This document shows, piece after piece, positions 740 through 49,129 of a stretch of DNA of 64,000 nucleotides (within the stretch, counting starts at the first letter, position 1; each line of letters begins with the position of its first letter). The notes under the pieces are model-generated. The model saw only the letters and a list, made by a program, of their open reading frames with translations. It had not been told where the DNA came from and made no database searches. The position numbers were made by a program, and so were the translations under genes. Origin of the DNA: Stentor roeselii (Eukaryota > Ciliophora > Heterotrichea > Heterotrichida > Stentoridae); assembly GCA_006503475.1 (NCBI GenBank), contig RSEH01000264.1:1-64000 (forward strand), written 5' to 3'.

Positions 740-3700
740 TTATTCATTCGTTCGTAATCCAAAACTAATCAAACCCCCCTTCCCTTCAACATTCCCATTC
801 CCTAAATTCGAAAACAAATCAATTCCAACCCTCATCACACTTTCACTATGCACTTTCCTATTCCTCCTCATCCCAATTTTTTCCACAAGACCTTCAGTAC
901 CACCCATAAAAATAGCAAAAATTTCAAGTAATCCAAAAACCGATCCAATGCAAGTTCCAAGATAAGCAAGAAAAGAAGAAATAGTTTTTCTCGTAGTAAC
1001 TAAAGTAGTTGTACTTTTTTTTATCTGGACTTCAATGTTAATACTTGATTCTGAATAAATTCTACTTAACTTTACCTTTCATTGTTAACAACAGAGCCGA
1101 TGATTAAGTTGTTGGTATTGAGAATGTGATATCCTGTCACTTTTCTTGGCCAGTCTGACTTGAAGATCTGAATGAAATTTACTGAAGGAATGAAATCTAC
1201 GCTGATACCTGAAGGAGAAGGACCTTTGAATACCAGTGATTTGTTTGGAGGACTTACATGTTGAGAGATTTCACTTGGGGAAGAAGGGATTGAAGATGAA
1301 ATTGAAAGGTTTATTGTAAGATGGCTTGTGAAGCCGAATAAGTCGTATAAACGAACTTTGAGAATGCCGTTGGAGATTAACTCGAAGTCTGAGTAGTCGA
1401 ATATAAGAATACAGCTTTCTGAGATTCTTTTAATTTCAGAAGATCTTTTAGTGTATACTACGCCAGTTTCATTTGTTATAATTGAGTTCATGTTAATGGC
1501 ATTTTTTTGAGTGCAGTCATTAGGATAATTACTTAGTTCAACAGAAAACCTGAAATTCTCAGAAATAATTCTGTCCTCAACTATGATACTTGGAATTAAA
1601 GTTTTAAATTCTTCGACATTTGCAGTAAAATACATATAAAATGTAAAAATAGCTGAAATGATCGCGACTAGCAAAAAAACAGTAGAAAAAATGCCACCAA
1701 TAAGAGTTTTTTTAAAAATAACAGGTTCTTCAAGAGTAATTTTATGCTTATCAATAAAAATATCAAATTTCTTAAATCTCTCCCTAAAATTTTTCACTAA
1801 AAGTAAACATGCAAGAATAATCCCATAAAAAATAATAGAATATATCGCAACAGTGTACATTAAATCATTCAATTTTCCTGAGTCAGAAGTCCAGGCTTTT
1901 GGCTGAATGCTTTCATTTCCATATTTTTTCATTAAGGTCATCGGAGATTTACACCCTAATGGACAATAAAAGTTCAAAGGACACTCTTTGCAATGACTTG
2001 CTCCTGTCTTGTCGTTAAACGTTCCAAAGTTGCAAAAACTGCATAGATATTGATTTGAAATTCCATATTTATTTGAAAATTTTCCTATTGGACATGGAAT
2101 ACAAGTTTCGTTTGAACTGTAGCTTCCAAGACTGCAGAAATTGCATTTATTTTTCTTTTCTCCGTGTAAACATGACAGGTTCAGGAAGTTTTTATCGAAG
2201 GAAAATTTTAGAAGTTGGTTTGTCTCGGATCTTTTGATGTCGACGTTTTCTGAACTTTTAACTCCTCCGAAGATGTAGATTGAGTCTAATAAATGAACTG
2301 CTGATAAGGAAAATAAACCGAATTCTTCGGAAAATGGAACTTTTTTCACGTTTAAAGTGATTAAATTTATTGAAATAATTAAGTTTGAAACCCATTCGGC
2401 TTGAATTGATCCGCCGATTATGTGAAGCCAATTATTGTCTAAAACTAGAGCAAAGAAAGCAGGAAAAGTAAAGTCAAACTCAATCTTTTCAATGTTTTTC
2501 ATTTCAATACTTGAGTTAGCAACTCCTGATATTTCAAATCTTAATAATTGTTTTGTTGAAAACCCTTGCAAATTTCTTCCACCTACTAAATAAACCTCAA
2601 CACTTTCCTTAAGTTCCCGAGATTCACAGCGAAAATCAGAAAGTTCTACTGGAAGATAAAAATCATTCTTTATCTCTTGACGAGATGATATATCAACGAT
2701 TATAAAATCCCTCAAGATTTTATAATCGTTGAGACCCCCAAACGCCAAAATAATAGTTCCTGTGAAAATTAAACAAGATCCATACCTCGGACTGTTATTA
2801 AAAGCTGAGAATTTGTATTCAGTCCATTCATTTATAGAGACATCATAAAAAACCGTGTCTGAAAAAACAGATTTATCATCCCTGCCTCCAAATATCAAAA
2901 ATCCAGTATTGAATACATTAAAAGAAGAAGCCAACTCTCTACCATTTGGAGTCACTCCTTTAGGAATCATTCCAGTCCACTCCAGACTCATAAGATTGAA
3001 TTTCCAAAGATCATTCAAGTAAAGCCGATTATCAAAAACTCCTCCAAAAATAAAAATTTCATTATTTATCGCATGGCTCAAATGATTCCTTCGTGGTGGA
3101 GGGAGATTCGCCGATGAAATAATAATATCCGGAACATTTAACAAAGATTTTAAAGAAAACCTAATAATTGAATTTTCCACTTGTTTAAAGGTAGAGCCTG
3201 ATATAAAGTATATCGAATCATTTTTTACTATCGAGCTTGACCCGAACCGAAAGATTTCATAATCAATTAAAATTTCGCTCCATTCATTTTTTCTGAAGTC
3301 AAACTGTAAAAAATTTCCAAGATTATTGATATTCTCATCAGTTCCGAAGAAAATGTAAAGTTTATCATAATAAACTACAGAAACATGATGCAATCTCCCG
3401 ACAGGCTGATAATCATTACTCTTCATGATATTCCAAACCTCTTGATTGAGGTCATATCTAAAAAAGTTCTCTTTCAAGTCCTTTGAAACTCCAAAAACGT
3501 ACAAACTTCCATCAAAAAACACAATTGAATGTCCATGGATTCTTCCAGGACCTTGCCCATCTTGACTCATTTTTCTTGAAGTTAAAGTCTCAACGTCAAT
3601 CCTATCTTTTTTTTACAGAAACAAACTACTGCAGGTTCCAGTGAAGTCAACTCCTCCATGAACAGCAAGCCAGCTGCTTCCATTGAAATTAAAAAAAATA

Positions 3701-8791: not shown

Positions 8792-9517
8792 ATGGATCGA
8801 AAACCTATGAAAAGACAGCTGAAACCCGTGGAATCTCCAAAGCCCATCCAGCCCTCAAAACCATTGCAACCCTCATCAATCCGACCAAATCCGAACCCAT
8901 CAGAAGAGCGAAAGCTTCCAAAACTAAACTCAAAAAAGCAAGACCTTCTTCCACGTCCCTTAAAATCCCTTTCAAATCCGTCAAAAGCCATATCAAAATC
9001 AACCCCTTCATCATCCCTATCACCAGATGAAGAAATTCTGCATTTAAAAGAAAAAATTCGTAAAAATTCCGAGGTAATCTCTTCATAGACCTTAAAAAAC
9101 CTATTCGAAAGGTACTTAAAAAACAAATCCGAGATGACTTCCCTTCGAAACGAGCGAAAAATGATGGAAAGTAATGCAAACAAGTTAGAACTTTTAAGAG
9201 GTTTCGTTATGAGCGAAATTGAAAATTTTTTCCATCATCAAGTGGAAGAAGACTACACATATGAGGAGCTTTTGGAACTTGAAGAGCAGATTGGAAAAGT
9301 GAGTCAAGGCTTTTCACAGGAAGAACTTAATCACATCACAACGAGGCCTGCTTTGGCAGACTCTCAATGCAGCATCTGCTTGAGTCCTGTAGAGACAGGC
9401 TCTGAGTCAATAGTTTTAGTGCCTTGCGAACATGAGTACCATCCAGACTGCATCAAGTCCTGGTTACAGGAACATAAAACTTGCCCTTTATGTTTGCAGG
9501 AAGTAATCCTTAGGTAA
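8792..9517 (+). CDS. RING-H2 E3 ubiquitin ligase, BIG BROTHER-like, one 15-nt intron
   Basis: Exons 8792-9073 and 9089-9517 encode 236 aa. The N-terminal 90 residues are Pro/Ser/Lys-rich and disordered, followed by a short coil. Residues about 149-180 contain YTYEELLELEEQIG, the conserved pre-RING segment of BIG BROTHER-type E3 proteins. The RING-H2 domain spans 188-229 with CSIC, CEHEYHPDC and CPLC, so all eight zinc ligands are present. Predicted role is E2-dependent ubiquitin transfer; substrate unknown. I chose the ATG at 8792, preceded by TTATAA. An in-frame ATG at 8768 overlaps the neighbour's start codon and is less likely. The stop is 4 nt before the PKG start. Confidence 0.86.
9074..9088 (+). 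other. 15-nt intron in the RING gene
   Basis: The sequence GTAATCTCTTCATAG lies between codons (phase 0), so unspliced it puts TAG in frame. Removal joins the proline-rich N-terminus to the coil and RING part with frame kept. It has the same GTAA...TAG form as the intron at 3602-3616. Confidence 0.88.
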
Positions 9518-9521
9518 TATA

Positions 9522-12194
9522 ATGGGAAGTTGTTCACTTAAAAGGACTGAAGGACAAGAGCAGGTTATTAAAATCATCGCTGTCACTAATCATCTCGCTA
9601 CTAATGAAGAAGAAAAAAAAATTGACAATAGCTTTGGAAGGGTCAGGTCTGGGAAAAGTAAACAAAAAGCTCCTTTACATGAGATAAGAAAGGGCTCGAT
9701 ACCTCAAACTGATGCACCCACTGCTGTTGTTAAGGATGTTGTCAAGACTCAGAAGGATATTCAAATGATTCAGAGCTTTTTTGAAAAACACTTCATTTTT
9801 AACACCTTGACTTCTGAACACAAAAGGTTGGTCATTGAAGCCATGAAACTTTATGTTTTGGCATCGGGGCAGATTATTTTTAGACAAAATCAACCTGGGA
9901 ATAACTTTTTTATTGTGACTTCTGGGATTTTAGAAGTGATTATAAATGAGGAACGGAAAAATACTATTAATGAAGGACAAGGATTCGGCGAATTAGCTCT
10001 AATGCACGACACTCCAAGAACAGCAACAGTAAAGACCTTAACAGCGACATCCCTCTGGGGTCTAGACCGTGGAACATTTAAAAGACTAATCGAAGACCTA
10101 AACGTGATGAACTACCAAGAAAACAAAGCTTTTATCGAAAGCGTAACACTTTTCACATCCCTAAGCCAATCCCAAAAAGACGCTTTGGTAGGTTCCCTGA
10201 ACACATTAAACTTCTCTCCAGGCCAAGTGATAGTAAAAGAAGGCGACATCGGTGACTTGCTTTACATCGTGAAAGAAGGTTCAGTCTCCTGTTTTCGAGG
10301 CGGGTCGGAGATAAAAAAGTTCACAAAAGGCGAGTACTTCGGAGACCAGGCCCTAATCTACAACAGTCCACGAACAGCGACTTGTGTTGCAATATCTCAA
10401 GTAGTCTGTCTTTCAATTGACCGAACCAGTCTCAACTCTGCCCTCGGCAGCCACCTTCAGCAGATAATCTTTAAAAATTCTCAGTCAATTATCATCAACC
10501 GCGACAATTACTTAAAAAAACTCTCTGAAATTCAATCAAACAAGATGATTGACTCGATGCTTATTCAAAATTTTAAACCTTCTGAAGTTATTATTCCTAA
10601 AGACTCATCTAAATGTGACCAGATTTTAATGATACTTAAGGGAAAGGCACTTTATGGAGAGGTTTATTTAGAGAAGTTTGAATGTGTTGGTGTCACTGAA
10701 ATGATTGAATGTATTGACTTGAGATTTGAATTTGATTTGGTTGCTTTTGAAGAAACTGATGTTGCTAGAATTGATAGAAATGGATTCGAGAAGTCTATTG
10801 GAGGAGCTTATTTGAATGTCACTTTGAATAATGAAGCTCTTAAGATTTTAAAGCAGGTTCAGATATTAAGAGGCGTTTCTGATGAAAAACTCGCAGCTTT
10901 GAAAGATGCGATGAAAGTAGAAAGTTTCGCACCTGGGCAGGTCATCGTTGAACAGAACAGTGAAGGAAATGCGTTTTTTATCATTAAAAAAGGAAAAGTG
11001 CAGGTCAGCATTGATGGGCATGTCGTTCGAGAAATCACGAAATTGGACTACTTTGGAGAAAGGTCTGTCATTTTCAATCAAAAAAGAACTGCTTCGGTCA
11101 TTGCTTGTGAAAATGTTGAATGCTGGGTGTTGTTTCAAAAAGATTTCTTGAGGATTATTGATCAGGGACTTAGAAATCAGCTTATGAAAAGAATTGAACT
11201 CCAGGATGATAACTTGATTTTAGAGGATTTAGTTATTGCTAGGTTGCTTGGAAAAGGCATGTTTGGAAATGTGTTTCTTGCTGTGCATAAAAATAAGAAA
11301 ATTTTTTATGCTTTGAAAACAGTTGATAGGAAAAAAATCGCTGCTTATGAGTTGTATGAAAGTTTAGTGCTTGAAAGGAAAATTTTACTTCAACTCGACC
11401 ACATCTTCATAATGAAGCTAGTAAAAACCCTAAAAGACGACAAAAGAATATACTTCGTCTTAGAATACGTTCGAGGAATGGACCTATTCGACGTTCTGCG
11501 AAACATGCAAATAGTTTCAGAAGAAGATTCCAAGTTCTACACAGCCTGTCTAATAATAATCCTCCAGCACCTTCACGAGCGAGAGATAATCTACCGTGAT
11601 CTAAAGCCAGAAAACATCGTAGTAGACGAAGAAGGTTACTTAAAACTGATCGATTTCGGTACAGCGAAGCTAGTAAAAGGCCGAACTTACACAATAGTCG
11701 GTACTCCTCACTACATGGCCCCCGAGGTGATTCTCCGCAAAGGCTACGGCGTCGCTTCCGACTACTGGAGTCTCGGAATCCTTTTATACGAGCTTCTCTT
11801 CGAAAGAGTTCCATTCGCCGACGAAGAAGAAGACCCGATGATAATTTACGAAATCATCCTGACATCAAAACTCAGATACCCTCGTCTTCCAACTTCCATG
11901 AACAACGTCAAGTCAGTCATCAACCAGCTGCTCAACAAGAACCCTTCTCACCGCATGGGCTCTGGCTTTGAAAAACTTAAGACAAGTCCTTGGTTCAGCA
12001 TGTTCAGTTGGGAAAAGCTTCTCAGTAAAGAACTTCCTGCACCTTATCTGCCGAAAATTAAAAAATTCGACTTGGACCTCGTAATTGAAACGTCTTCGAA
12101 AAAATCACTTGAGTCTGTCTTTCGAAATGAAGAACAAGACGAAATCCCGATGCCCACTTCGAAGGCTCCTGAAGGCTGGGATGAGGAATTTTAA
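9522..12194 (+). CDS. PKG: cGMP-dependent protein kinase with four CNB domains
   Basis: The 890 residues carry, from the N-terminus, MGSCS (Gly2 for N-myristoylation, Cys4 for palmitoylation), four cyclic-nucleotide-binding repeats and an AGC kinase. CNB-A (about 80-210) has GFGELALMHDTPRTATV, and CNB-B (about 215-330) has FGDQALIYNSPRTAT. CNB-C (about 340-440) lacks the phosphate-binding Glu/Arg cassette. CNB-D (about 445-550) has FGERSVIFNQKRTA. The kinase (about 565-830) has GKGMFGNV, YRDLKPEN near 690, DFGTA near 711 and MAPE near 733. Layout and degenerate CNB-C match apicomplexan and ciliate PKG. It is likely membrane-anchored and activated by cGMP. It lies in a same-strand run 4 nt after the RING stop and 11 nt before the hydrolase start. 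Confidence 0.95.
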   Translation: MGSCSLKRTEGQEQVIKIIAVTNHLATNEEEKKIDNSFGRVRSGKSKQKAPLHEIRKGSIPQTDAPTAVVKDVVKTQKDIQMIQSFFEKHFIFNTLTSEHKRLVIEAMKLYVLASGQIIFRQNQPGNNFFIVTSGILEVIINEERKNTINEGQGFGELALMHDTPRTATVKTLTATSLWGLDRGTFKRLIEDLNVMNYQENKAFIESVTLFTSLSQSQKDALVGSLNTLNFSPGQVIVKEGDIGDLLYIVKEGSVSCFRGGSEIKKFTKGEYFGDQALIYNSPRTATCVAISQVVCLSIDRTSLNSALGSHLQQIIFKNSQSIIINRDNYLKKLSEIQSNKMIDSMLIQNFKPSEVIIPKDSSKCDQILMILKGKALYGEVYLEKFECVGVTEMIECIDLRFEFDLVAFEETDVARIDRNGFEKSIGGAYLNVTLNNEALKILKQVQILRGVSDEKLAALKDAMKVESFAPGQVIVEQNSEGNAFFIIKKGKVQVSIDGHVVREITKLDYFGERSVIFNQKRTASVIACENVECWVLFQKDFLRIIDQGLRNQLMKRIELQDDNLILEDLVIARLLGKGMFGNVFLAVHKNKKIFYALKTVDRKKIAAYELYESLVLERKILLQLDHIFIMKLVKTLKDDKRIYFVLEYVRGMDLFDVLRNMQIVSEEDSKFYTACLIIILQHLHEREIIYRDLKPENIVVDEEGYLKLIDFGTAKLVKGRTYTIVGTPHYMAPEVILRKGYGVASDYWSLGILLYELLFERVPFADEEEDPMIIYEIILTSKLRYPRLPTSMNNVKSVINQLLNKNPSHRMGSGFEKLKTSPWFSMFSWEKLLSKELPAPYLPKIKKFDLDLVIETSSKKSLESVFRNEEQDEIPMPTSKAPEGWDEEF

Positions 12195-12205
12195 TATAAG
12201 TAAAA

Positions 12206-13006
12206 ATGATCAACTCTTTTGTGATTGGCACCGGAAAAAAGCATATTTGGATGCATGGACTTCTTGGAAATTGTCTTAATTTAAGTCCTTTGGCCAGAAG
12301 TCAGAATGGAATGCATTTTTTAATTGATGCCAGGAATCATGGAAGTAGCTTTCATCAGGATGGAATGGATTATAAGGTCCTTGCGGAGGATGTGAAGAAG
12401 TTTATGAGTGGAAAGGGAATTGATAAGGCGGTTATGGTTGGGCATTCAATGGGTGGAAAAACTGCAATGGCTCTTGCGTTGCTTTGGCCGGAATGTGTTG
12501 AAGCTGTTTGTGTCTTGGACATCGCGCCTGTGTCTTATTCACTTGTTATGGAAGAGTATTATGGATATGTTAGACAGTATCTTAAGTTTATTAAGGATAC
12601 TCAACTTGATGGAAAGACTAGAAAAGATGTTGAACAGATCGCTTTGGAAAAGTTTCAGGATGTTAAGATCATGCAACTTATTGCTAGTAATCTGAGGCAA
12701 AATGAAAATGGATTGGAATGGAGGATTGGATTTCAGCAACTTTTTAATGGAATTCAAGATGTTGGTAGCTGGTCGATTCCAGGTAAATACACCGGCCCAT
12801 TCCAAGCGATCGTAGGTTCAAACTCGATCCACACCTGCAAAAGTCCTCTTCTATCCTCTTCCCTTCCAGTATCATCTCTCTACTCACCTCAATTTCCCTC
12901 AGCCTCAATAGAAATAATAAACAACGCAGGTCACTTTCTCCACGTAGACCAAGCAGAATCAGTAAAAAAAAGCATAACTAAGTTCCTTTCCTCACTTTCT
13001 AATTAA
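12206..13006 (+). CDS. alpha/beta hydrolase, ABHD11-like
   Basis: A 266-residue single-domain serine hydrolase. The nucleophile elbow is GHSMGG near 78-83. The HGLLG oxyanion segment lies near 17 and the DARNHG motif near 42. A C-terminal NAGHFLHVDQ supplies the catalytic His near 243. This set and the length are typical of ABHD11/YbfF-type esterases. Mammalian ABHD11 is mitochondrial, but no clear targeting peptide is seen here, so location is open. The start is the first ATG after the PKG stop, and the stop TAA is a single base before the next ATG. Confidence 0.88.
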   Translation: MINSFVIGTGKKHIWMHGLLGNCLNLSPLARSQNGMHFLIDARNHGSSFHQDGMDYKVLAEDVKKFMSGKGIDKAVMVGHSMGGKTAMALALLWPECVEAVCVLDIAPVSYSLVMEEYYGYVRQYLKFIKDTQLDGKTRKDVEQIALEKFQDVKIMQLIASNLRQNENGLEWRIGFQQLFNGIQDVGSWSIPGKYTGPFQAIVGSNSIHTCKSPLLSSSLPVSSLYSPQFPSASIEIINNAGHFLHVDQAESVKKSITKFLSSLSN

Positions 13007-13007
13007 T

Positions 13008-14189
13008 ATGATTGCAGACCCTGAAATAATCGAAGAAGACCTCTACAGTACAAACGACCTGATCCTATTCGCGAATCCTCGTTCAGGTTCAAACAAAGCA
13101 AAAGAATACCTGAAACTTTCCAACACCCAACTAAAGCTTTCAACTGCTTCAAGCACGACCTTCATCCACATCTACGACTTGACAAATAACGAGAGTCGAT
13201 CTTCAGGAGTCTTAAAAATCAAAGACTTGCTGAACTCTCCAGAAATCGTCCTTCTTCGAATCGTCGTCGCTGGAGGAGATGGAAGCCTTATCTGGACCAT
13301 TGAATTACTTAAAGCTCAGGGTGTTAATTTCAATCAAATCGCATTCGCCATCCTGCCCTTTGGCTCTGGTAATGACCTGGCAGCGACTCTTGGATGGGGA
13401 AGAGACCCGCCGAGTGATTTGATGGAATCTTATATGTTCTTGTGGCTTAAGGCTTTACCGCATCAACTTGATATCTGGGACTTGAAACTTAAAGTTCATG
13501 ATAATGGCGGATTTGGAAAAGTGAAGAAAACGAAGGAAAATGTGGAAAAGTACTTTTTGGAGAGAAATGGGGAAAAACAAAAAAAGATTAAAAAACTTAT
13601 GTCGAATTATTTTAGTATCGGACTTGATGCAAGGATCGGCCTGGGATTTGATAAGCATCGGACTAAATCGAAATGTTGTAATCGTTTTTTTTACTTTTGG
13701 GAAGGAATTAAGAAAATGTGCTGTTGCTTGAAAACTGCTTCGATTCCTGAAGTGGTTAAAAGTGTGAAAGAACAGGATAATGTTATTTTTGATAATGCTA
13801 GTGATAAACTTACTTTAGATGAAGATACGTCTGTGTTACTGGCACTTAATATCAGGACTTATGGTGGAGGGAATAACTTTGTTTGGGATAAATCTAGAGG
13901 AAAAGCTAAGAGAAAATGGCTTAGGCAGAGTCCAAATGATGGAAATCTTGAAATTCTTAGCTTTAGTGGAAAGATGAGTCTTGGGTTAGAGCAGATTAAA
14001 TGTACTCAGGGCCAGGCCAGGAAGTTAGAACAGGGACCTGGACCTTTTAGTATAGAATTTGATCAAACTAAACAGAAATGCTATTTTCAGATCGATGGTG
14101 AGTACTTTTTTATGGAAGCACCGAAAAGTGCGAGACTTAAGTTGTGGGAAATGAGTAAAGAAATTAAGGTGCTATTTAGGGCTAAGTAA
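13008..14189 (+). CDS. diacylglycerol kinase
   Basis: It phosphorylates diacylglycerol to phosphatidic acid, ending DAG signals downstream of phospholipase C. The 393-residue protein has the catalytic domain with NPRSGSN near 22, VVAGGDGS near 86-93 and the nucleotide-binding FGSGNDLA near 119-126. It is followed by the accessory domain with YFSIGLDARI near 204 and LNIRTYGGG near 280. There are no C1 domains, EF-hands or membrane segments, so it is a minimal eukaryotic-type DGK. A Lys-rich insert is present near 170-200. It sits one base after the hydrolase stop and makes functional sense near the IP3-receptor-like gene, but linkage proves nothing here. Confidence 0.93.
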   Translation: MIADPEIIEEDLYSTNDLILFANPRSGSNKAKEYLKLSNTQLKLSTASSTTFIHIYDLTNNESRSSGVLKIKDLLNSPEIVLLRIVVAGGDGSLIWTIELLKAQGVNFNQIAFAILPFGSGNDLAATLGWGRDPPSDLMESYMFLWLKALPHQLDIWDLKLKVHDNGGFGKVKKTKENVEKYFLERNGEKQKKIKKLMSNYFSIGLDARIGLGFDKHRTKSKCCNRFFYFWEGIKKMCCCLKTASIPEVVKSVKEQDNVIFDNASDKLTLDEDTSVLLALNIRTYGGGNNFVWDKSRGKAKRKWLRQSPNDGNLEILSFSGKMSLGLEQIKCTQGQARKLEQGPGPFSIEFDQTKQKCYFQIDGEYFFMEAPKSARLKLWEMSKEIKVLFRAK

Positions 14190-18919: not shown

Positions 18920-20872
18920 CTAAATCTCCATATTTTTCTTTTCATTAATGTCAATAAGTGACAAGTCTTTGCCATCCCTGACTTCAGTCTGGTTTTTCGT
19001 CTTGAATCTTCCAAGGATCATTTTTTCCAAGTTTCCCGAAGGCATTTCAACAGCTAAAACAATAGGAATAGAGCAGGCAAAGCTAAGCAAAAAGAAGTAA
19101 ATAAAGTCTCTGATATTATTATACTGGTTGTACTCATATGAGGTTTTAATACTTCTTATAATAATTTCGATGATTCCATAGTGAATCAAATACATGACAA
19201 AAGTGAATTTCGCAATAAAGCTCCAGACATAAAGAGACATCATCCAGGTGATTACTTTGAAATATCCTAGTAAGCAAGGTAGTAAAATCATTGAAATAGC
19301 TAATCCATAAGCGAATCTTTCCAAGGCAATAAAAGTGTAGTTCGCATGTTTTGACCAGTGTCGGTATTTCAAGTCGTCTCCTGGGTGTTTGTAAGCATCG
19401 TATTGTACAAATATTAGCACGTTTAGTAAGGCAAGACCGCTTGCAAAGACAAAACTTCTCACATAAAAATTCTTAAAAGATCTGGAAATAAACAGAGAAA
19501 TACTATCTGTCACATTTATGGACTTCTTCATCTTGCGATAATTATGCAAGATTATCCCACACCCAATCCCTAAGGCATAAGGAGCGACTCTACAATAAGG
19601 TTTTACATAATAATAATCAAAATAATTGTTACCTGTAGTGAAAATAACAGGGTTAAGGTCGAAATGATGAGCAATTGCGGCAGAGGTGGCAATATTCAGC
19701 AAGTTGAGTCCTCCGATGATACCCCAAGCGGCAAGTTTGTTGATTTTTAAATAAACAACAAGGATAATCGGTGATATGAAGAAGAACTGCATATCATCAG
19801 CGAGGTACCAAGAAGGACCAAGACAGCTTTCAGTCTTATAATTCGGCAAAAAATTATTCAAATAAAGCAAATTTGCGTACCAATACTTATGACAGTCCTC
19901 GTAAAACGCTTCAGTCACATTAAACCAAAGAGGTCCATTTCCTAAATAAGGCGTCATGGCCCACATAAACAACAAGCAAAACATATAAACTGGAGTAATC
20001 CTCAAAATTCGATGCACATAAACCAAGACAATCCTCAACACAGTTAAACTCCTGGGCTTATCAAACTCGACTAAAAACAAGTAAGTCATTAGCAGTCCCG
20101 AAAGCCAAAAAAAGGTATCAACAGCATAAAAGCCTCCATAAATAACTATATACTCTTTTCCTGTAAAGATCCTACTCAACTCGGTGTAATTAACGCAAGG
20201 CACGAAAAAAGCGTAGTTGATATAAGTATGCCCAAGGATCACCCATCCGATGCTGAAAACTCTCACAGCATTCAAAAGCTCCAGCTCGTCTTTCTGCCCC
20301 AGTCGAGACTCTCCCCTGCTGACGATGACCCGTTTGCAGTTGGCGATGAGTGAAAAGCACTGAACTAGTTCCAAATAAGACCCTGTTAAAGCCCTTCCAG
20401 ATGTTTTTCTGATGTGAAGGTACTCCAGAATCGTGCAGAAGACTACTAAAAAACTGAGAATTGATATAAAAATTATCATGAAAATCGCTCCTGTTGAGTA
20501 GTCTCTGTAGTGGTCTGAACGGTACTTGTGTGGAAAGTAGACCTTAAATGAAGGGGAGAGGTAAAAGGGAAGAAGATTTGAAGTGTAAAAAGACTCGTCG
20601 CATGAAAGAGGACCGCAAACTCCTTGAACTGAGTTCATGGTTTCGCTGAGGACGAATGTTACGTAACGAGCCCGTGAGATCTTGTTGCAGCCGTTGTAGT
20701 TTCCCAAGTCATTTAGACTGAAACCTGAGTATTGGTACATCATCCAATAGTCGTGGGGAATTGAAAGGTTTCGCTGGCTGTTGTATATCAAATTCCACTC
20801 TTCTGAACAGCTCAGACTGAGGGAAGGGCTGATCTGGACTGACAGAAGGATAAAGATAGTGGAAATCGACAT
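18920..20872 (-). CDS. NRF-6-type acyltransferase-3 membrane protein (copy 1)
   Basis: The 650 residues begin with a signal peptide, then a Cys-containing NRF (nose-resistant-to-fluoxetine) luminal domain (about 20-125) with CSEEW, CGPLSC and NGCNK. An acyltransferase-3 domain with about ten membrane segments follows. The likely catalytic His is in RVFSIGWVILGHT near 205-217, and a WYLADDMQFF motif follows, as in the family. Such proteins transfer acyl groups or move lipids across membranes in animals and protists; the substrate is unknown. The adjacent gene at 21083-23053 is a close tandem duplicate in the same orientation. Stop TAG. Confidence 0.9.
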   Translation of the reverse strand: MSISTIFILLSVQISPSLSLSCSEEWNLIYNSQRNLSIPHDYWMMYQYSGFSLNDLGNYNGCNKISRARYVTFVLSETMNSVQGVCGPLSCDESFYTSNLLPFYLSPSFKVYFPHKYRSDHYRDYSTGAIFMIIFISILSFLVVFCTILEYLHIRKTSGRALTGSYLELVQCFSLIANCKRVIVSRGESRLGQKDELELLNAVRVFSIGWVILGHTYINYAFFVPCVNYTELSRIFTGKEYIVIYGGFYAVDTFFWLSGLLMTYLFLVEFDKPRSLTVLRIVLVYVHRILRITPVYMFCLLFMWAMTPYLGNGPLWFNVTEAFYEDCHKYWYANLLYLNNFLPNYKTESCLGPSWYLADDMQFFFISPIILVVYLKINKLAAWGIIGGLNLLNIATSAAIAHHFDLNPVIFTTGNNYFDYYYVKPYCRVAPYALGIGCGIILHNYRKMKKSINVTDSISLFISRSFKNFYVRSFVFASGLALLNVLIFVQYDAYKHPGDDLKYRHWSKHANYTFIALERFAYGLAISMILLPCLLGYFKVITWMMSLYVWSFIAKFTFVMYLIHYGIIEIIIRSIKTSYEYNQYNNIRDFIYFFLLSFACSIPIVLAVEMPSGNLEKMILGRFKTKNQTEVRDGKDLSLIDINEKKNMEI

Positions 20873-21082: not shown

Positions 21083-23053
21083 CTAATAAAGTCTATCTTT
21101 TTGTTTAGTATTCGATCCTGAAAAGTCTTCTAACAGCAAGCTTTTCTTCCTATCTTCTTCATTTTCTTCTTCCTTCTTCTTAAAAGACGAGAACATAATT
21201 CTTTCTAAGTTAATCGAAGGCATCTCGACTGCTAAAACAATGGGAATAGCGCACACGAATGACAAGAAAAAGAAATAAAACGAGTCTCTAATATTGTTAT
21301 ATTCATCAAACTCAATACTAGTCTTGGTGCTTCTGAGACAAATAGTAATAATAGCATAATGAATCAAATACATAACAAAAGTAATCCTCGCCATGACACT
21401 CCAAATATAAGCAGACAGAACCTGTGCAGGGAATTTCATATACCCTAAAAGCATCGGCATGAGTACCAAGCTAAGTCCAAGCGCATAAGCCACTCTTTGG
21501 AGGGCAATAAAACTATACCTTTCATTATTACTCCAATGATGATACTTTGAAAAGTCTCCAGGGTGTTTATAAGTATCATATTGGAAGAAAATAAGGAAGT
21601 TGATAATACAAAAACCTACAAAAAAACTCGAGTATCTTATGTAGATGTTGTCTATCGCTTTTCCCATGCTCAGAGCGAGTTTATCGTAAATTCTTCCGGT
21701 TTTCTTGTACTGTCGATATGAAAAAAGAATCATTCCGCAGGCCAAACCGATTGCGTAGGGTGGGACTCTGCAATAAGGTTTTGTGTAGTAATAGTTGAAG
21801 TAGTTTAGCTTGTTGTCGGCTGAAAATATCACTGGGTTTAGGTTGAAGTGATGAGCTATCACTGCTGATGTTATTATTCCCAGGATGTTTAAACCCACAA
21901 TGATACCCCAAGAGAGTAGTTTGTTGATTTTCATGTAGATGATCAGGATCACTGGAGAAATCATGAAAAATTGCATGTCGTTTGCCAAGTACCACGACTG
22001 TCCTAAGCAGCTGCTAGTTTTCCAATGTGGAACAAAGTTGTTAACATAGAGCAAGTTAGACCACCAACGTTTATGACAATCTGGGTTGAAATTATTGGTC
22101 ACATCAAACCAAAACGGTCCATTTCCAAAATACGGCATCAAAGCCCAGAAGAAAAAGAGGCAAAACATATAAACAGGAGTAATCCTAAGAAACCTATGAA
22201 CATAAGTGAGTATCAAGGTAGGAGCCGGTGATCCTTTAATTTTATCAAACTCATTAATAAACAAGTAAGCCATGAGCAGGCCAGACATCCAGAAGAATGT
22301 ATCAACCGCGTAAAACGCAGTATAAACCAATATATACCTCGAGTCTTTGAACTCTTTATAGTAATCCGTGAAGTTTGTAAGCGGAACAATCGAAATATAA
22401 TTCAACAGCGTGTGCCCCAAGATGACCCATCCAATGCTAAAGACTCTCACAGCATTCAAAATCTCTAAAGAGTCTTTTTCACCAAGTCTGTCCTGACTTC
22501 GAGTTGTCAGTAGTTTCTTGACGTTGAAGATCATTGAAAAAGACTGAAGCAGCTTGAATACGAACAAGTTTCGAATTGAATTTTTTATGAAGAAATCAGC
22601 TGCTGTCGCTACCACTACAAGAAAGGAGATCAATGAAGTCACGACTAACATTGCGATCGGTCCTGAGTCGTAATGCTTGTAGTGGTCTGTTTGGTATTTG
22701 TGAGGAAATTCGACGAGGGCTGGGTATCCTTTGTAAAATGGGAAGGTAGTGTTTTTGTAGTAATCTTTTTTGCATTTGATCGGACCACAGACTGCCTGGA
22801 GAATTAATGGAGACTCTGCAAGACCGATCACTGTATACCTTGCTATGTCGATTTTGTTACAACCGTCGTAGTAACCGATGGAATTTGGAGTGAAACCTGA
22901 GTATTGAAACATCATTCGATAGTCATTTAAAGCTTGAGAACTATTTGCTTGACTATTAAAAATTTTTCCCCATTCTATTAAGCATTCTGTATATGTTCCC
23001 TCAGATAGAAGAACTATAGAGAACAGAAAGAACACTCGAAAGGTAAAAAACAT
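21083..23053 (-). CDS. NRF-6-type acyltransferase-3 membrane protein (copy 2)
   Basis: The 656 residues have the same architecture as the downstream copy: signal peptide, NRF domain with CLIEWG and CGPIKC, multi-pass acyltransferase-3 core with RVFSIGWVILGHT and WYLANDMQFF, and the same PSGNLEK-like end (PSINLER) before a short charged tail. The two copies align over nearly the whole length and are separated by 210 nt, so they arose by tandem duplication. Divergence is spread across the protein, so the event is not recent. Both frames are intact and keep the catalytic His. Confidence 0.9.
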   Translation of the reverse strand: MFFTFRVFFLFSIVLLSEGTYTECLIEWGKIFNSQANSSQALNDYRMMFQYSGFTPNSIGYYDGCNKIDIARYTVIGLAESPLILQAVCGPIKCKKDYYKNTTFPFYKGYPALVEFPHKYQTDHYKHYDSGPIAMLVVTSLISFLVVVATAADFFIKNSIRNLFVFKLLQSFSMIFNVKKLLTTRSQDRLGEKDSLEILNAVRVFSIGWVILGHTLLNYISIVPLTNFTDYYKEFKDSRYILVYTAFYAVDTFFWMSGLLMAYLFINEFDKIKGSPAPTLILTYVHRFLRITPVYMFCLFFFWALMPYFGNGPFWFDVTNNFNPDCHKRWWSNLLYVNNFVPHWKTSSCLGQSWYLANDMQFFMISPVILIIYMKINKLLSWGIIVGLNILGIITSAVIAHHFNLNPVIFSADNKLNYFNYYYTKPYCRVPPYAIGLACGMILFSYRQYKKTGRIYDKLALSMGKAIDNIYIRYSSFFVGFCIINFLIFFQYDTYKHPGDFSKYHHWSNNERYSFIALQRVAYALGLSLVLMPMLLGYMKFPAQVLSAYIWSVMARITFVMYLIHYAIITICLRSTKTSIEFDEYNNIRDSFYFFFLSFVCAIPIVLAVEMPSINLERIMFSSFKKKEEENEEDRKKSLLLEDFSGSNTKQKDRLY

Positions 23054-35049: not shown

Positions 35050-36230
35050 TTAGATGTTGTAAGTCTTCACACCGTTCACGTTTTTCATTAGCTTGAATAC
35101 TGCTAGTTTAGTTGTTGCTTGGGCTTTTGATAGATCTACAAGAAGACTCTCAGCTTTTTTTGATAATGCTATGTCTGAATCACTTCGTTCTTTAACCATA
35201 TTGCTGAAAAGTGGAACTATGTTTGGGATTTCACCGGATTTTAAGGTTTTTTCGAGACTTTGATCGAATGTTGGTAGTTTTGCTGCCATTTCTTTGAAAA
35301 CCCTTTCAAATTCCTCTGCAGCTTCAGGGAAATCCCTGACTACAGCCTTCATTTTCTCATCAATAGCAGCAACAACCTCTTCAATTCCCTGCCAAACATT
35401 CAAAATAAACTGAAAATTCCTCTCAAGTCCCTCAAAAACCTTTCCAAACTCAACAGAGCAAGTTTCAGTAGCATTACTTTCATTAACATCTTCGACAGAA
35501 TCAATGACTCCTTCAATCCATTTCCAGAAATTCGCTCTAAGTTTGAATTCTTCTTCTTTTCTTTGATCAGCTTTTTCAGCTTCACTCATGATATTAGAGA
35601 AGTTTTGGATTCTTTCATCTGATGACGAGATCCAGATGTCTTCTGGGTCTAAACTTGGGTCTGAGTCGTGGATTTTGTTTATTATTTGAGATGTGTAGAA
35701 GATCTGGCTGTAAGTGTCTCGCAGTTCTGTAAGGATTCGTCGGTGAAGAAAAAGAATTGAGCTCCAGGATGGCTCAGAGGGTCCTGGCAGTGAGGATGTG
35801 ATGAACGCGTTTGCTGATGAGTTTAGGGAATCAATTGTGGCTAGGCCTGTTGGAGGGGATGAGAAATAGCTGTCATATTTGCTGAAGAGGTCTACGTGGT
35901 TTATTAGATAACCGAAGGCTAGGAGAAGATAGTTTGACTTATTTTGCAGATGGAACGGAAGCTTGTAGCGGTATAACGCATAGGTCACAAATCTTTGCAA
36001 ATCTGGAGTGAAGGTAGGAGTCTGATTAACCCTAATGCGAAAGTTATGAACATTCAAAACAATAATCTGAAAAAGTCCAACCCAGAACTTTTCAACCTAC
36101 TTAAACCTACCACTTTATCATCTCCCGTCTTAGCAAGTCGAAAAGATTCCGGATTAAGAGCCCTGACACCAAAAAACGCGAGAATATTGCAAACATGTTC
36201 AATAGACTCTTTAGCAACTCGTGCATTCAT
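35050..36230 (-). CDS. TEDC1-like protein (tubulin epsilon/delta complex), one 14-nt intron
   Basis: Exons 36230-36111 and 36096-35050 give exactly 389 codons (388 aa). The first 40 codons contain NILAFFGVRALNPESFRLAK and the second exon opens with EKFWVGLFQII. Together they resemble the N-terminus of TEDC1 (C14orf80), where a helix, a PE.FR.AKF-like strand and an FW motif follow one another. Further on, YLLLAFGYLI corresponds to the SRELLLAFGWLL-like motif. The rest is helical. In animals TEDC1 acts with delta- and epsilon-tubulin for centriole triplets, which fits a ciliate. Without the intron the frame starts only at a TTG and loses this N-terminus. It begins 6 nt after the upstream gene's stop. 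The family assignment is by motif memory and not certain. Confidence 0.65.
36097..36110 (-). other. candidate 14-nt intron in the TEDC1-like gene
   Basis: Read on the minus strand the sequence is GTAGGTTTAAGTAG, between codons GTG and GTT (phase 0). The frame change demands a length of 2 modulo 3, so 15 or 16 nt fail. An 11-nt version ending at the earlier AG leaves an in-frame TAG. A 17-nt version starting at the upstream GTGG is the only near alternative. It shares the ending TTAAGTAG with the intron at 1062-1075. Confidence 0.6.
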
Positions 36231-36236
36231 ATTTAC

Positions 36237-37052
36237 TTACAATTTTCTGAGTTTAACCCCACGAGTGACGATATGTCCCTGAGTGATTTCAAGCGACGGG
36301 TTTCTTTTCGTATCTTGACTGAAGATCTGGTAAGAGTGGTTAAAAACAGGTGAACATATCAAGCTGTACTCTTTCTCAAAAGCTGTTTTCGCAGGGGCAA
36401 TCGCGAAAATCCTGTTTTTTTTTAACAGTTTTTTACTACTTGCTCTCGATTTCGACTTATTCGCCTTGATCTTCAAATCTTGCAGGTTCTCAGAAAGTCG
36501 ACTGTTTTCAAGTTTAGTAAAACTCAGCTCTTCCTTCATGAAGTGGTTGTAGCTACTCGCTGTTTCAAAGATTTCAGAACTTTGGTAAAGAGAAAGTTTT
36601 GCTGATTTGAACTGTTCACGAAGTTCTTTGTTTTTTTTCTTCATTTCACGAATTTTTAAGAAATAATTCGGTTTGTCGCAGTCACCGTCAGATCGAGAAG
36701 CTGCTTGTGTCAGTTCCTCGAATTTCATCTGTTTTGACTCAATCGACGCTAAAAAATAAGGATTTTTTCGAGATTTATCAAGTTTTTTACAGTTTATCCT
36801 GCTTTGATCTAGGATTTTTTTTAGTTCTTCAAGTTCGTCTCTGATTTCATCAGCTTCATTTATGATTTCAACGTTATTTCCATGTTTTTGTTGAAGAAGG
36901 TTTCGACCTTCGTACTTTTTCGAAGGTTTTAGGTCTTTTTGGCTATTTTTCCAGAAAATTGAAAAATTTTCAGCAAGTTTTGAGTTTTTGCAAAAAACTT
37001 CATTTTTTTCAATGATTTCAATTTGGGTGCTTCGAAGATGGTTCTGGAAATC
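36237..37052 (-). CDS. coiled-coil protein or C-terminal part of the LRR gene
   Basis: The frame is open from just after a TGA (37055-37053) to TAA at 36237, 271 codons. The first in-frame ATG is only at 36728, which would give 163 aa. Yet the 108 upstream codons look coding: FQNHLRSTQIEIIEKNEVF, then a clear coil with EIINEADEIRDELEELKKIL. The upstream LRR frame is in the same register and joins through a 15-nt intron-like sequence. The simplest reading is one LRR/coiled-coil protein of about 450 aa interrupted by one TGA. Otherwise this is a separate gene with an unseen start. The C-terminal 60 residues are basic. Confidence 0.6.
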   Translation of the reverse strand, partial: DFQNHLRSTQIEIIEKNEVFCKNSKLAENFSIFWKNSQKDLKPSKKYEGRNLLQQKHGNNVEIINEADEIRDELEELKKILDQSRINCKKLDKSRKNPYFLASIESKQMKFEELTQAASRSDGDCDKPNYFLKIREMKKKNKELREQFKSAKLSLYQSSEIFETASSYNHFMKEELSFTKLENSRLSENLQDLKIKANKSKSRASSKKLLKKNRIFAIAPAKTAFEKEYSLICSPVFNHSYQIFSQDTKRNPSLEITQGHIVTRGVKLRKL

Positions 37053-37056
37053 TCAG

Positions 37057-37071
37057 CTATAAAAAAATTAC
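37057..37071 (-). other. candidate 15-nt intron at the LRR/coil junction
   Basis: Read on the minus strand the sequence is GTAATTTTTTTATAG, a phase 2 intron of the same form as 3602-3616. Removing it turns the LRR end from VLM-stop to VLI followed directly by TGA, so splicing alone does not join the two parts. Confidence 0.5.
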
Positions 37072-48105: not shown

Positions 48106-48633
48106 TTAAAAGAATCCTGTCATGCTCCGATCAGCTTCTTTGACTTCTCCTTGAGGTTCCAAAATACTTTCATATCCTGAATTTTCAATTAAATAAGAGC
48201 TGATAATAGTTGACCCTCTTTCAATATTATTCGCATCAACAACAGACACATCCATAGAGTTTTGAACACTGCCTGACTGATCCTTAACCATGGGAATCGT
48301 GCTTCCAGTCAGAGAAGACAAGCAAGTGGATTCATTCTTTATCTGAGAACCTGAACTTAAACTAAAAGGTTCAAATTGACTGGCTAGAATCTCATCAACC
48401 GTATCTTTCATGTTACTATCCTTCAAGACATACTTATTAAAAAAGCAGGTCAAGTCATCTCCTTCAAACTTAAACGCCTTGATACTAACCTGCCCATTCA
48501 CAGCCGGTTTTAAAGTAATTCTAACCTTTCCAGTTTCGCATTTATAAGAAACTTTAAACAATTTCATATACTGTTCTTTGTCAATATCAAAAAAAATATT
48601 TCCTTCCTTCACAAACAGTTCTATATTTTCCAT
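48106..48633 (-). CDS. unknown 175-residue protein
   Basis: Not recognised. The first 75 residues look folded, with alternating strands and Lys/Phe pairs (ELFVKEGNIFFDIDKEQYM, KVRITLKPAVNG). The remainder is Ser/Asn-rich and acidic, likely disordered. The start ATG lies 7 nt after the stop of the next minus-strand gene. Intact and with normal composition, so probably real. Confidence 0.65.
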   Translation of the reverse strand: MENIELFVKEGNIFFDIDKEQYMKLFKVSYKCETGKVRITLKPAVNGQVSIKAFKFEGDDLTCFFNKYVLKDSNMKDTVDEILASQFEPFSLSSGSQIKNESTCLSSLTGSTIPMVKDQSGSVQNSMDVSVVDANNIERGSTIISSYLIENSGYESILEPQGEVKEADRSMTGFF

Positions 48634-48640
48634 TTATTTC

Positions 48641-49129
48641 TTAACTAAAATAAACTCTCTGTGATTTATGCCTCACAATGTTCTTCTCAGACACAGGGTC
48701 ATATAAACTACTCCAGAAAAATTTTTCCCGAGAGTCAATTCGACGACTTTTTTCGAAATAACTCAAAAGAGGACTTCTGATGCTGCCTCTGGAAGTTGAT
48801 TTATGGTCGTAAACCATTGGACTGTCGAAGAATTCTCGACAATCTTTATAATACTTGTTGTTGTCTTTACTTACTTTCACGTGAAAGTTAGGGTCCCATC
48901 CGAGTTCTTTTAGTTTTTCGTGTTTTTTTGAAGATTTTGGTAGGGGAAGACGGTCTGAGAACTTTTCGAGAGTGGACCTTAGGTTGGGGTAGGAATTTTT
49001 GGAATAGTTTCCGAGGAGAAGTTTTTCTTGCTTTTTTCGTGAAGGCTTGTCGAAGTAGACGCGGTAGAATTCGTGTAGCTTTGGGTTGCTACTGCTTGAT
49101 ACGATATTTAGTCGGCTATCTAACATCAT
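48641..49129 (-). CDS. unknown basic 162-residue protein
   Basis: Not recognised. Rich in Lys, Ser, Tyr and Asn with short motifs such as KLKELGWDPNFHVKVSKD and REFFDSPMVYDHKS; largely disordered. The start is MM at 49129 after AAT. It shares a divergent 136-nt gap with the coiled-coil gene at 49266 and is 7 nt upstream of the next gene. Confidence 0.65.
   Translation of the reverse strand: MMLDSRLNIVSSSSNPKLHEFYRVYFDKPSRKKQEKLLLGNYSKNSYPNLRSTLEKFSDRLPLPKSSKKHEKLKELGWDPNFHVKVSKDNNKYYKDCREFFDSPMVYDHKSTSRGSIRSPLLSYFEKSRRIDSREKFFWSSLYDPVSEKNIVRHKSQRVYFS

Follow-up and report, generated by a model that had tools for sequence, protein, structure and literature searches.

Two candidate 14-nt introns at reading-frame breaks in a compact heterotrich-like ciliate genome

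Two 14-nt sequences on the minus strand of the window, the whole 64-kb stretch of DNA analysed here, are probably spliceosomal (U2-type) introns of a heterotrich-like ciliate that also has 15-nt introns. The first, GTAGGTTTAAGTAG (36097 to 36110), lies in a TEDC1-like gene, and the second, GTAAAGTTAAGTAG (1062 to 1075), in a Kelch-like gene. The original prediction had placed a 14-mer with a GTA start and a TTAAGTAG end at each of these positions, and both were located there; the strand, absent from that prediction, was found to be minus in each case. Both 14-mers have the GTA donor, an AG acceptor (as TAG) and an adenosine six bases from the 3' end, A(-6), which stands at position 9, leaves a 5-nt tail and is the putative branch adenosine. 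Neither site has the 15- or 16-nt length of heterotrich introns. The pattern GTANNNTTAAGTAG had two matches in the 64-kb window compared with a shuffle mean of 0.02, and two matches were reached in 0 of 100 shuffles. By itself, TTAAGTAG is not unusual in the window (4 matches compared with 2.59 expected, 25 of 100 shuffles reaching 4). The general form of a 14-nt intron with A(-6), GTA-N5-A-NN-TAG, had exactly two matches on both strands of the 64 kb (4.43 expected), namely the two 14-mers; here the argument is that both matches fall at frame breaks, and their frequency is irrelevant. Four further sense-strand GTA..TAG 14-mers were present inside open ORFs, none with A(-6) (Fisher p 0.067).

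In the TEDC1-like gene (minus strand), exon 1 runs from 36111 to 36230 and comprises 40 codons from an ATG at 36230-36228, while exon 2 (35050 to 36096) comprises 348 codons and a stop. At the break, the exon MNARVAKESIEHVCNILAFFGVRALNPESFRLAKTGDDKV and the exon starting VEKFWVGLFQIIVLN are open in different frames, that of the latter opening right behind the TAG of the 14-mer. Across the whole gene there was no GTA..TAG of 11 to 21 nt other than this 14-mer. The Pfam TEDC1 profile (PF14970) matched residues 84 to 238 with 15.6 bits (E 0.019); the gathering score of 27.4 bits was not reached, and the gene is therefore named only TEDC1-like. The profile is unable to decide the junction, since its match starts only beyond it and near-equal scores were obtained for the products of a 14-nt cut, a 17-nt cut and a frameshift (15.6, 15.7 and 15.6 bits, respectively). 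A search for a TEDC1 relative among solved structures returned none, the four weak matches (best E 0.058) being unrelated by name, and the structure predicted for exon 2 alone was unusable (mean pLDDT of 37.5). Animal TEDC1 proteins carry an FRRAK...LW.LLF-type segment ahead of the Pfam domain. The 14-nt product would presumably align to this segment gap-free, whereas a gap of one residue would be needed for the 17-nt product, an expectation given zero weight here. An imperfect 10-base tandem repeat, GTAGGTTTAA/GTAGGTTGAA (36091-36110, minus strand), overlaps the 14-mer and extends into exon 2. A tandem duplication of these 10 bases or a leftover IES was considered for this site and dropped, as the frame is not restored by removing 10 bases; a pair of 16-nt introns was likewise dropped, the gene being without any GTA..TAG 16-mer.

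The second gene, also on the minus strand, encodes a membrane protein named Kelch-like by eye from its repeats, and at 1.07 kb it changes frame in the same sense as the TEDC1-like gene. Its middle exon (1076 to 3601) and last exon (740 to 1061) flank the 14-mer, and a 15-nt intron, GTAAAAAAAAGATAG (3602 to 3616), precedes the middle exon. When the C-terminus of the protein was searched against the window, no paralogue was found at E < 2 except the gene itself. The 15-nt introns had been described as ending in GATAG, CATAG or TATAG, and these endings were matched by GTAAAAAAAAGATAG, by GTAATCTCTTCATAG (9074 to 9088, plus strand) and by GTAATTTTTTTATAG (37057 to 37071, minus strand). GTAAAAAAAAGATAG and GTAATCTCTTCATAG were picked by the gene search, the latter in a gene named RING-finger by eye, where its retention would leave an in-frame TAG; GTAATTTTTTTATAG, in a leucine-rich repeat (LRR)/coiled-coil gene, was not picked and has an in-frame TGA directly behind it. 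A(-6), position 10 at this length, was present in one of the three 15-mers (GTAAAAAAAAGATAG); in each of the other two, no A occurs after position 4 except at positions 12 and 14, so adherence to the Stentor branch rule is imperfect in the window. In the LRR/coiled-coil gene (37604-36237, minus strand; named by eye), GTAATTTTTTTATAG is followed by one base and then by the TGA (37053-37055), and the frame of this TGA stays open for about 270 codons more. The TGA may be recoded, a nonsense variant or the result of an assembly error.

At both sites the reading frame can be joined only by removing 3k+2 bases, with open exons on either side, and a single 15- or 16-nt intron is therefore excluded by arithmetic at both. 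Each site offers 12 frame-restoring GT-AG choices of up to 80 nt, and at each only one of the 12 is GTA..TAG: the 14-mer. As a null model, 6000 one-base losses were simulated in a set of 24 open ORFs totalling 45,195 bases, from which the two tested genes were excluded. A frame-restoring GT-AG of 8 to 40 nt was found in 4792 of the 6000 losses, so the presence of a GT-AG alone carries no weight. GTA..TAG of up to 17 nt restored the frame in 200 losses, GTA-N8-TAG (14 nt) in 33, the same with A(-6) in 4 and the same with TTAAGTAG in 0. On the strength of frame and motif together, we infer that both sites are probably spliced as introns, with a putative branch at A(-6).

A gene search by codon model, run on both strands with GTA..TAG introns of 10 to 30 nt allowed, placed four introns (two of 14 nt, two of 15 nt) and six frameshifts. 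Of the frameshifts, two stand at boundaries between genes (13001 and 4192), two lie within ORFs that are antisense to other genes (35295 and 33226), and the last two mark an unexplained break in the LRR/coiled-coil gene (37070 and 37026). The 12 decoy end pairs gave scattered lengths, at 0 to 6 uses per pair. The decoys GTT..TAG and GTA..AAG reached six uses each, with total scores 4.8 and 2.2 under that of the true pair. Since these scores are close to the true one, it is the narrow lengths and not the score that carry the argument.

The main rival explanation is that both 14-mers are ordinary 15-nt introns from which one base was lost in assembly. This would agree with the heterotrich rule of 15 nt, as a single lost base would turn such an intron into a 14-mer needing exactly 3k+2, and each 14-mer contains a run of three equal bases at which a loss might have occurred. 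However, the 24 other long ORFs are open throughout their 45,195 bases, whereas both losses would have to fall within approximately 60 to 75 intron bases, a strong clustering; the 24 ORFs were chosen for openness and so cannot serve as a measure of the error rate, and an unexplained break is present in the LRR/coiled-coil gene. Two such losses are unlikely, and we regard this explanation as a minority one.

A somewhat less probable explanation is that the introns are real but have other odd lengths, 17 nt at the TEDC1-like site (GTGGTAGGTTTAAGTAG, 36097 to 36113, minus strand) and 11 nt at the Kelch-like site (GTAAAGTTAAG). These were the introns picked by a first gene search in which any GT-AG of 8 to 40 nt was permitted. 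Both are stop-free and have the same frame outcome as the 14-mers, the 17-nt cut giving a product one residue shorter, and their codon scores were 13.3 compared with 13.25 for 14 nt (TEDC1-like) and 8.05 compared with 8.03 (Kelch-like). Such near ties are insufficient to fix the intron length, and the Pfam scores given above do not discriminate either. A 17-nt cut starting at GTGG had been named in the original prediction as evidence that would count against it; that cut does leave the frame open, with an equally good score, but its donor is GTG, whereas GUA is stringently conserved in Stentor introns (PMC9505925). Furthermore, 17 and 11 nt are both missing from the Stentor set and require two odd lengths rather than one, and removal of 11 nt at the TEDC1-like site leaves a stop. 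The 14-nt length is favoured because a single length with GTA, TAG and A(-6) fits both sites, because GUA is conserved in Stentor and because 11 nt leaves the TEDC1-like stop. From these considerations, 14 nt is the most likely intron length at both sites.

It is improbable that either site lacks an intron altogether and owes its frame change to a one-base assembly error in an exon or to -1 ribosomal frameshifting. A 2-nt removal, equivalent to one missing base, would work at 44 positions at the TEDC1-like site (36100-36054) and at 9 positions at the Kelch-like site (1082-1074), and Euplotes ciliates are described as frameshifting frequently, though in the +1 direction. On the other hand, the best scores were slightly lower (12.37 and 7.93, respectively), inspection by eye revealed no classical slippery site, and the intron-like 14-mer would be a coincidence of 4/6000 per site. 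That one or both genes are pseudogenes with a frameshift is very improbable, since 348 codons are open past the TEDC1-like break and 106 past the Kelch-like break, even though the in-frame TGA and frame trouble of the neighbouring LRR/coiled-coil gene suggest that disrupted genes may exist here.

The original prediction had gone further in proposing a distinct 14-nt class, marked by TTAAGTAG, as opposed to random sequencing errors. The part concerning errors was supported: both sites need 3k+2, the unique GTA..TAG at each is the 14-mer, and a random base loss in coding sequence is unlikely to have coincided with such a 14-mer. A class marked by TTAAGTAG found no support beyond the two cases, and two cases are too few to define a class. 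Of the eight letters of TTAAGTAG, the four of A(-6) and TAG are those expected of Stentor introns in general. Chance agreement in the other four (positions 7, 8, 10 and 11) is expected in 0.5% of pairs at window composition and in up to 1% at 75.6% AU, for an agreement that was spotted post hoc.

The two 14-mers resemble the 15- and 16-nt introns of Stentor coeruleus in their GTA start, AG end and A(-6), and the genes resemble those of that species in having few introns each and the standard genetic code (PMC9505925). According to the same source, the S. coeruleus annotation contains 8806 introns, of which 8173 have 15 nt and 633 have 16 nt; a length of 14 nt does not occur. The branch adenosine is assigned there to position 10 in 15-nt introns (8005) and to position 11 in 16-nt introns (442), together 8447 of 8806, with a constant 5-nt tail. 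The 14-mers differ in having the A at position 9 and a predicted loop of 9 nt compared with 10 to 11 nt (PMC9505925). Heterotrich introns are given as approximately 95% 15 bp, the rest being 16 (PMC11441545), and those of Blepharisma as predominantly 15 and 16 bp (PMC9942806). Blepharisma stoltei likewise has tiny introns, in a compact heterotrich macronuclear genome of the kind to which the window may belong, but reads UGA as tryptophan, whereas the long ORFs of the window fit three stops; the available text on B. stoltei contains no mention of 14 nt for its introns (PMC9942806). In the karyorelict Loxodes magnus, from the sister group of the heterotrichs, introns are also short (mode 17 bp) but, unlike the 14-mers, have a mean of 19.3 bp with a negligible number below 16 bp (PMC11441545). 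Mikrocytid introns likewise span very few lengths, close to the lower limit, although the group is an unrelated lineage (Rhizaria) and its introns, at 16/17 nt, are longer (PMC10245619). The 15-nt Stentor introns are named among the shortest known (PMC12316389), and the intron minimum given for P. bursaria is 15 nt (PMC12862383). In the available text of the literature surveyed (including PMC10946202, PMC8899921, PMC2633312 and PMC10980511) there was no report of 14-nt spliceosomal introns, and 14 nt is shorter than any spliceosomal intron described there. The 14 bp in PMC9942856 concerns IES logos, and PMC7859197 deals with group I introns of algae and has no bearing here.

If spliced, the GTA donor of each 14-mer would be read by U1/U6 and attacked by the adenosine at position 9, with the last TAG as the acceptor. 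The branch-to-acceptor tail would be held at 5 nt, as in the 15- and 16-nt introns of Stentor, and the shortening would be borne by the donor-to-branch side, reducing the lariat loop from 10 or 11 to 9 nt. The A at position 9 in both 14-mers suggests that the 5-nt tail was kept. This branch mechanism is weakened by the finding that position 10 is A in only one of the three 15-mers in the window. We tentatively suggest that 14 nt may be a regular intron length here, with the 5-nt tail kept and the donor-to-branch loop cut to 9 nt, and that TTAAGTAG may be a stricter branch/acceptor signal for minimal introns. There is a tension between 14 nt in two of the four GTA..TAG introns chosen in the window and 0 of 8806 annotated in S. 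coeruleus; this may reflect a difference between species, an annotation unable to register 14-nt introns, or a misreading of one or both 14-mers.

The window has a G+C content of 35.3%, and ORFs of at least 600 bases under three stops cover 78% of it. Thirty-one gene models, hand-picked from two gene searches after 11 antisense-shadow ORFs were dropped, cover 84%. Pfam analysis of six of the proteins revealed RPA1, a diacylglycerol kinase, an IP3-receptor-like channel, a cyclic-nucleotide-regulated kinase, a kinesin and an acyltransferase. Long ORFs open under the standard code, the tiny introns, the high coding share and these eukaryotic genes fit a compact heterotrich macronuclear genome. 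Tiny introns are said to occur in the compact heterotrich genome of Fabrea salina. No relatives were confirmed in the viral_contigs and genome_contigs collections, and an Rfam scan of the window at gathering thresholds returned nothing. Same-strand neighbours were observed with stop-to-ATG gaps of 1, 4, 6 and 11 bases (13004-13010, 9515-9524, 36228-36239 and 12192-12208, respectively), implying either an overlap of UTRs with coding sequence or shared transcripts. At 48631-48643 (minus strand), an in-frame TAA is followed closely by an ATG in the same frame (KK*MENIEL) inside apparently continuous coding sequence. Two similar-looking acyltransferase genes lie in tandem at 18920-20872 and 21083-23053 (minus strand), of which the second, the one submitted, matched Pfam Acyl_transf_3; the pair is probably a local duplication.

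As judged from the DNA, the two candidate 14-nt introns are a probable new length variant of the tiny introns of heterotrichs, although two computed cases do not establish 14-nt splicing. If confirmed by RNA, they would lie one base below the 15 nt usually quoted as the shortest intron length. The lower limit of intron size bears on how the branch helix, the donor and the acceptor fit into the catalytic centre, and the question of how even a 10-nt loop escapes clashes has been raised for Stentor (PMC9505925). Were the 5-nt tail unchanged in a 14-nt intron, this would indicate that the loop, and not the tail, is the part still able to shrink. Annotation limited to introns of 15 and 16 nt would then mis-frame genes such as these.
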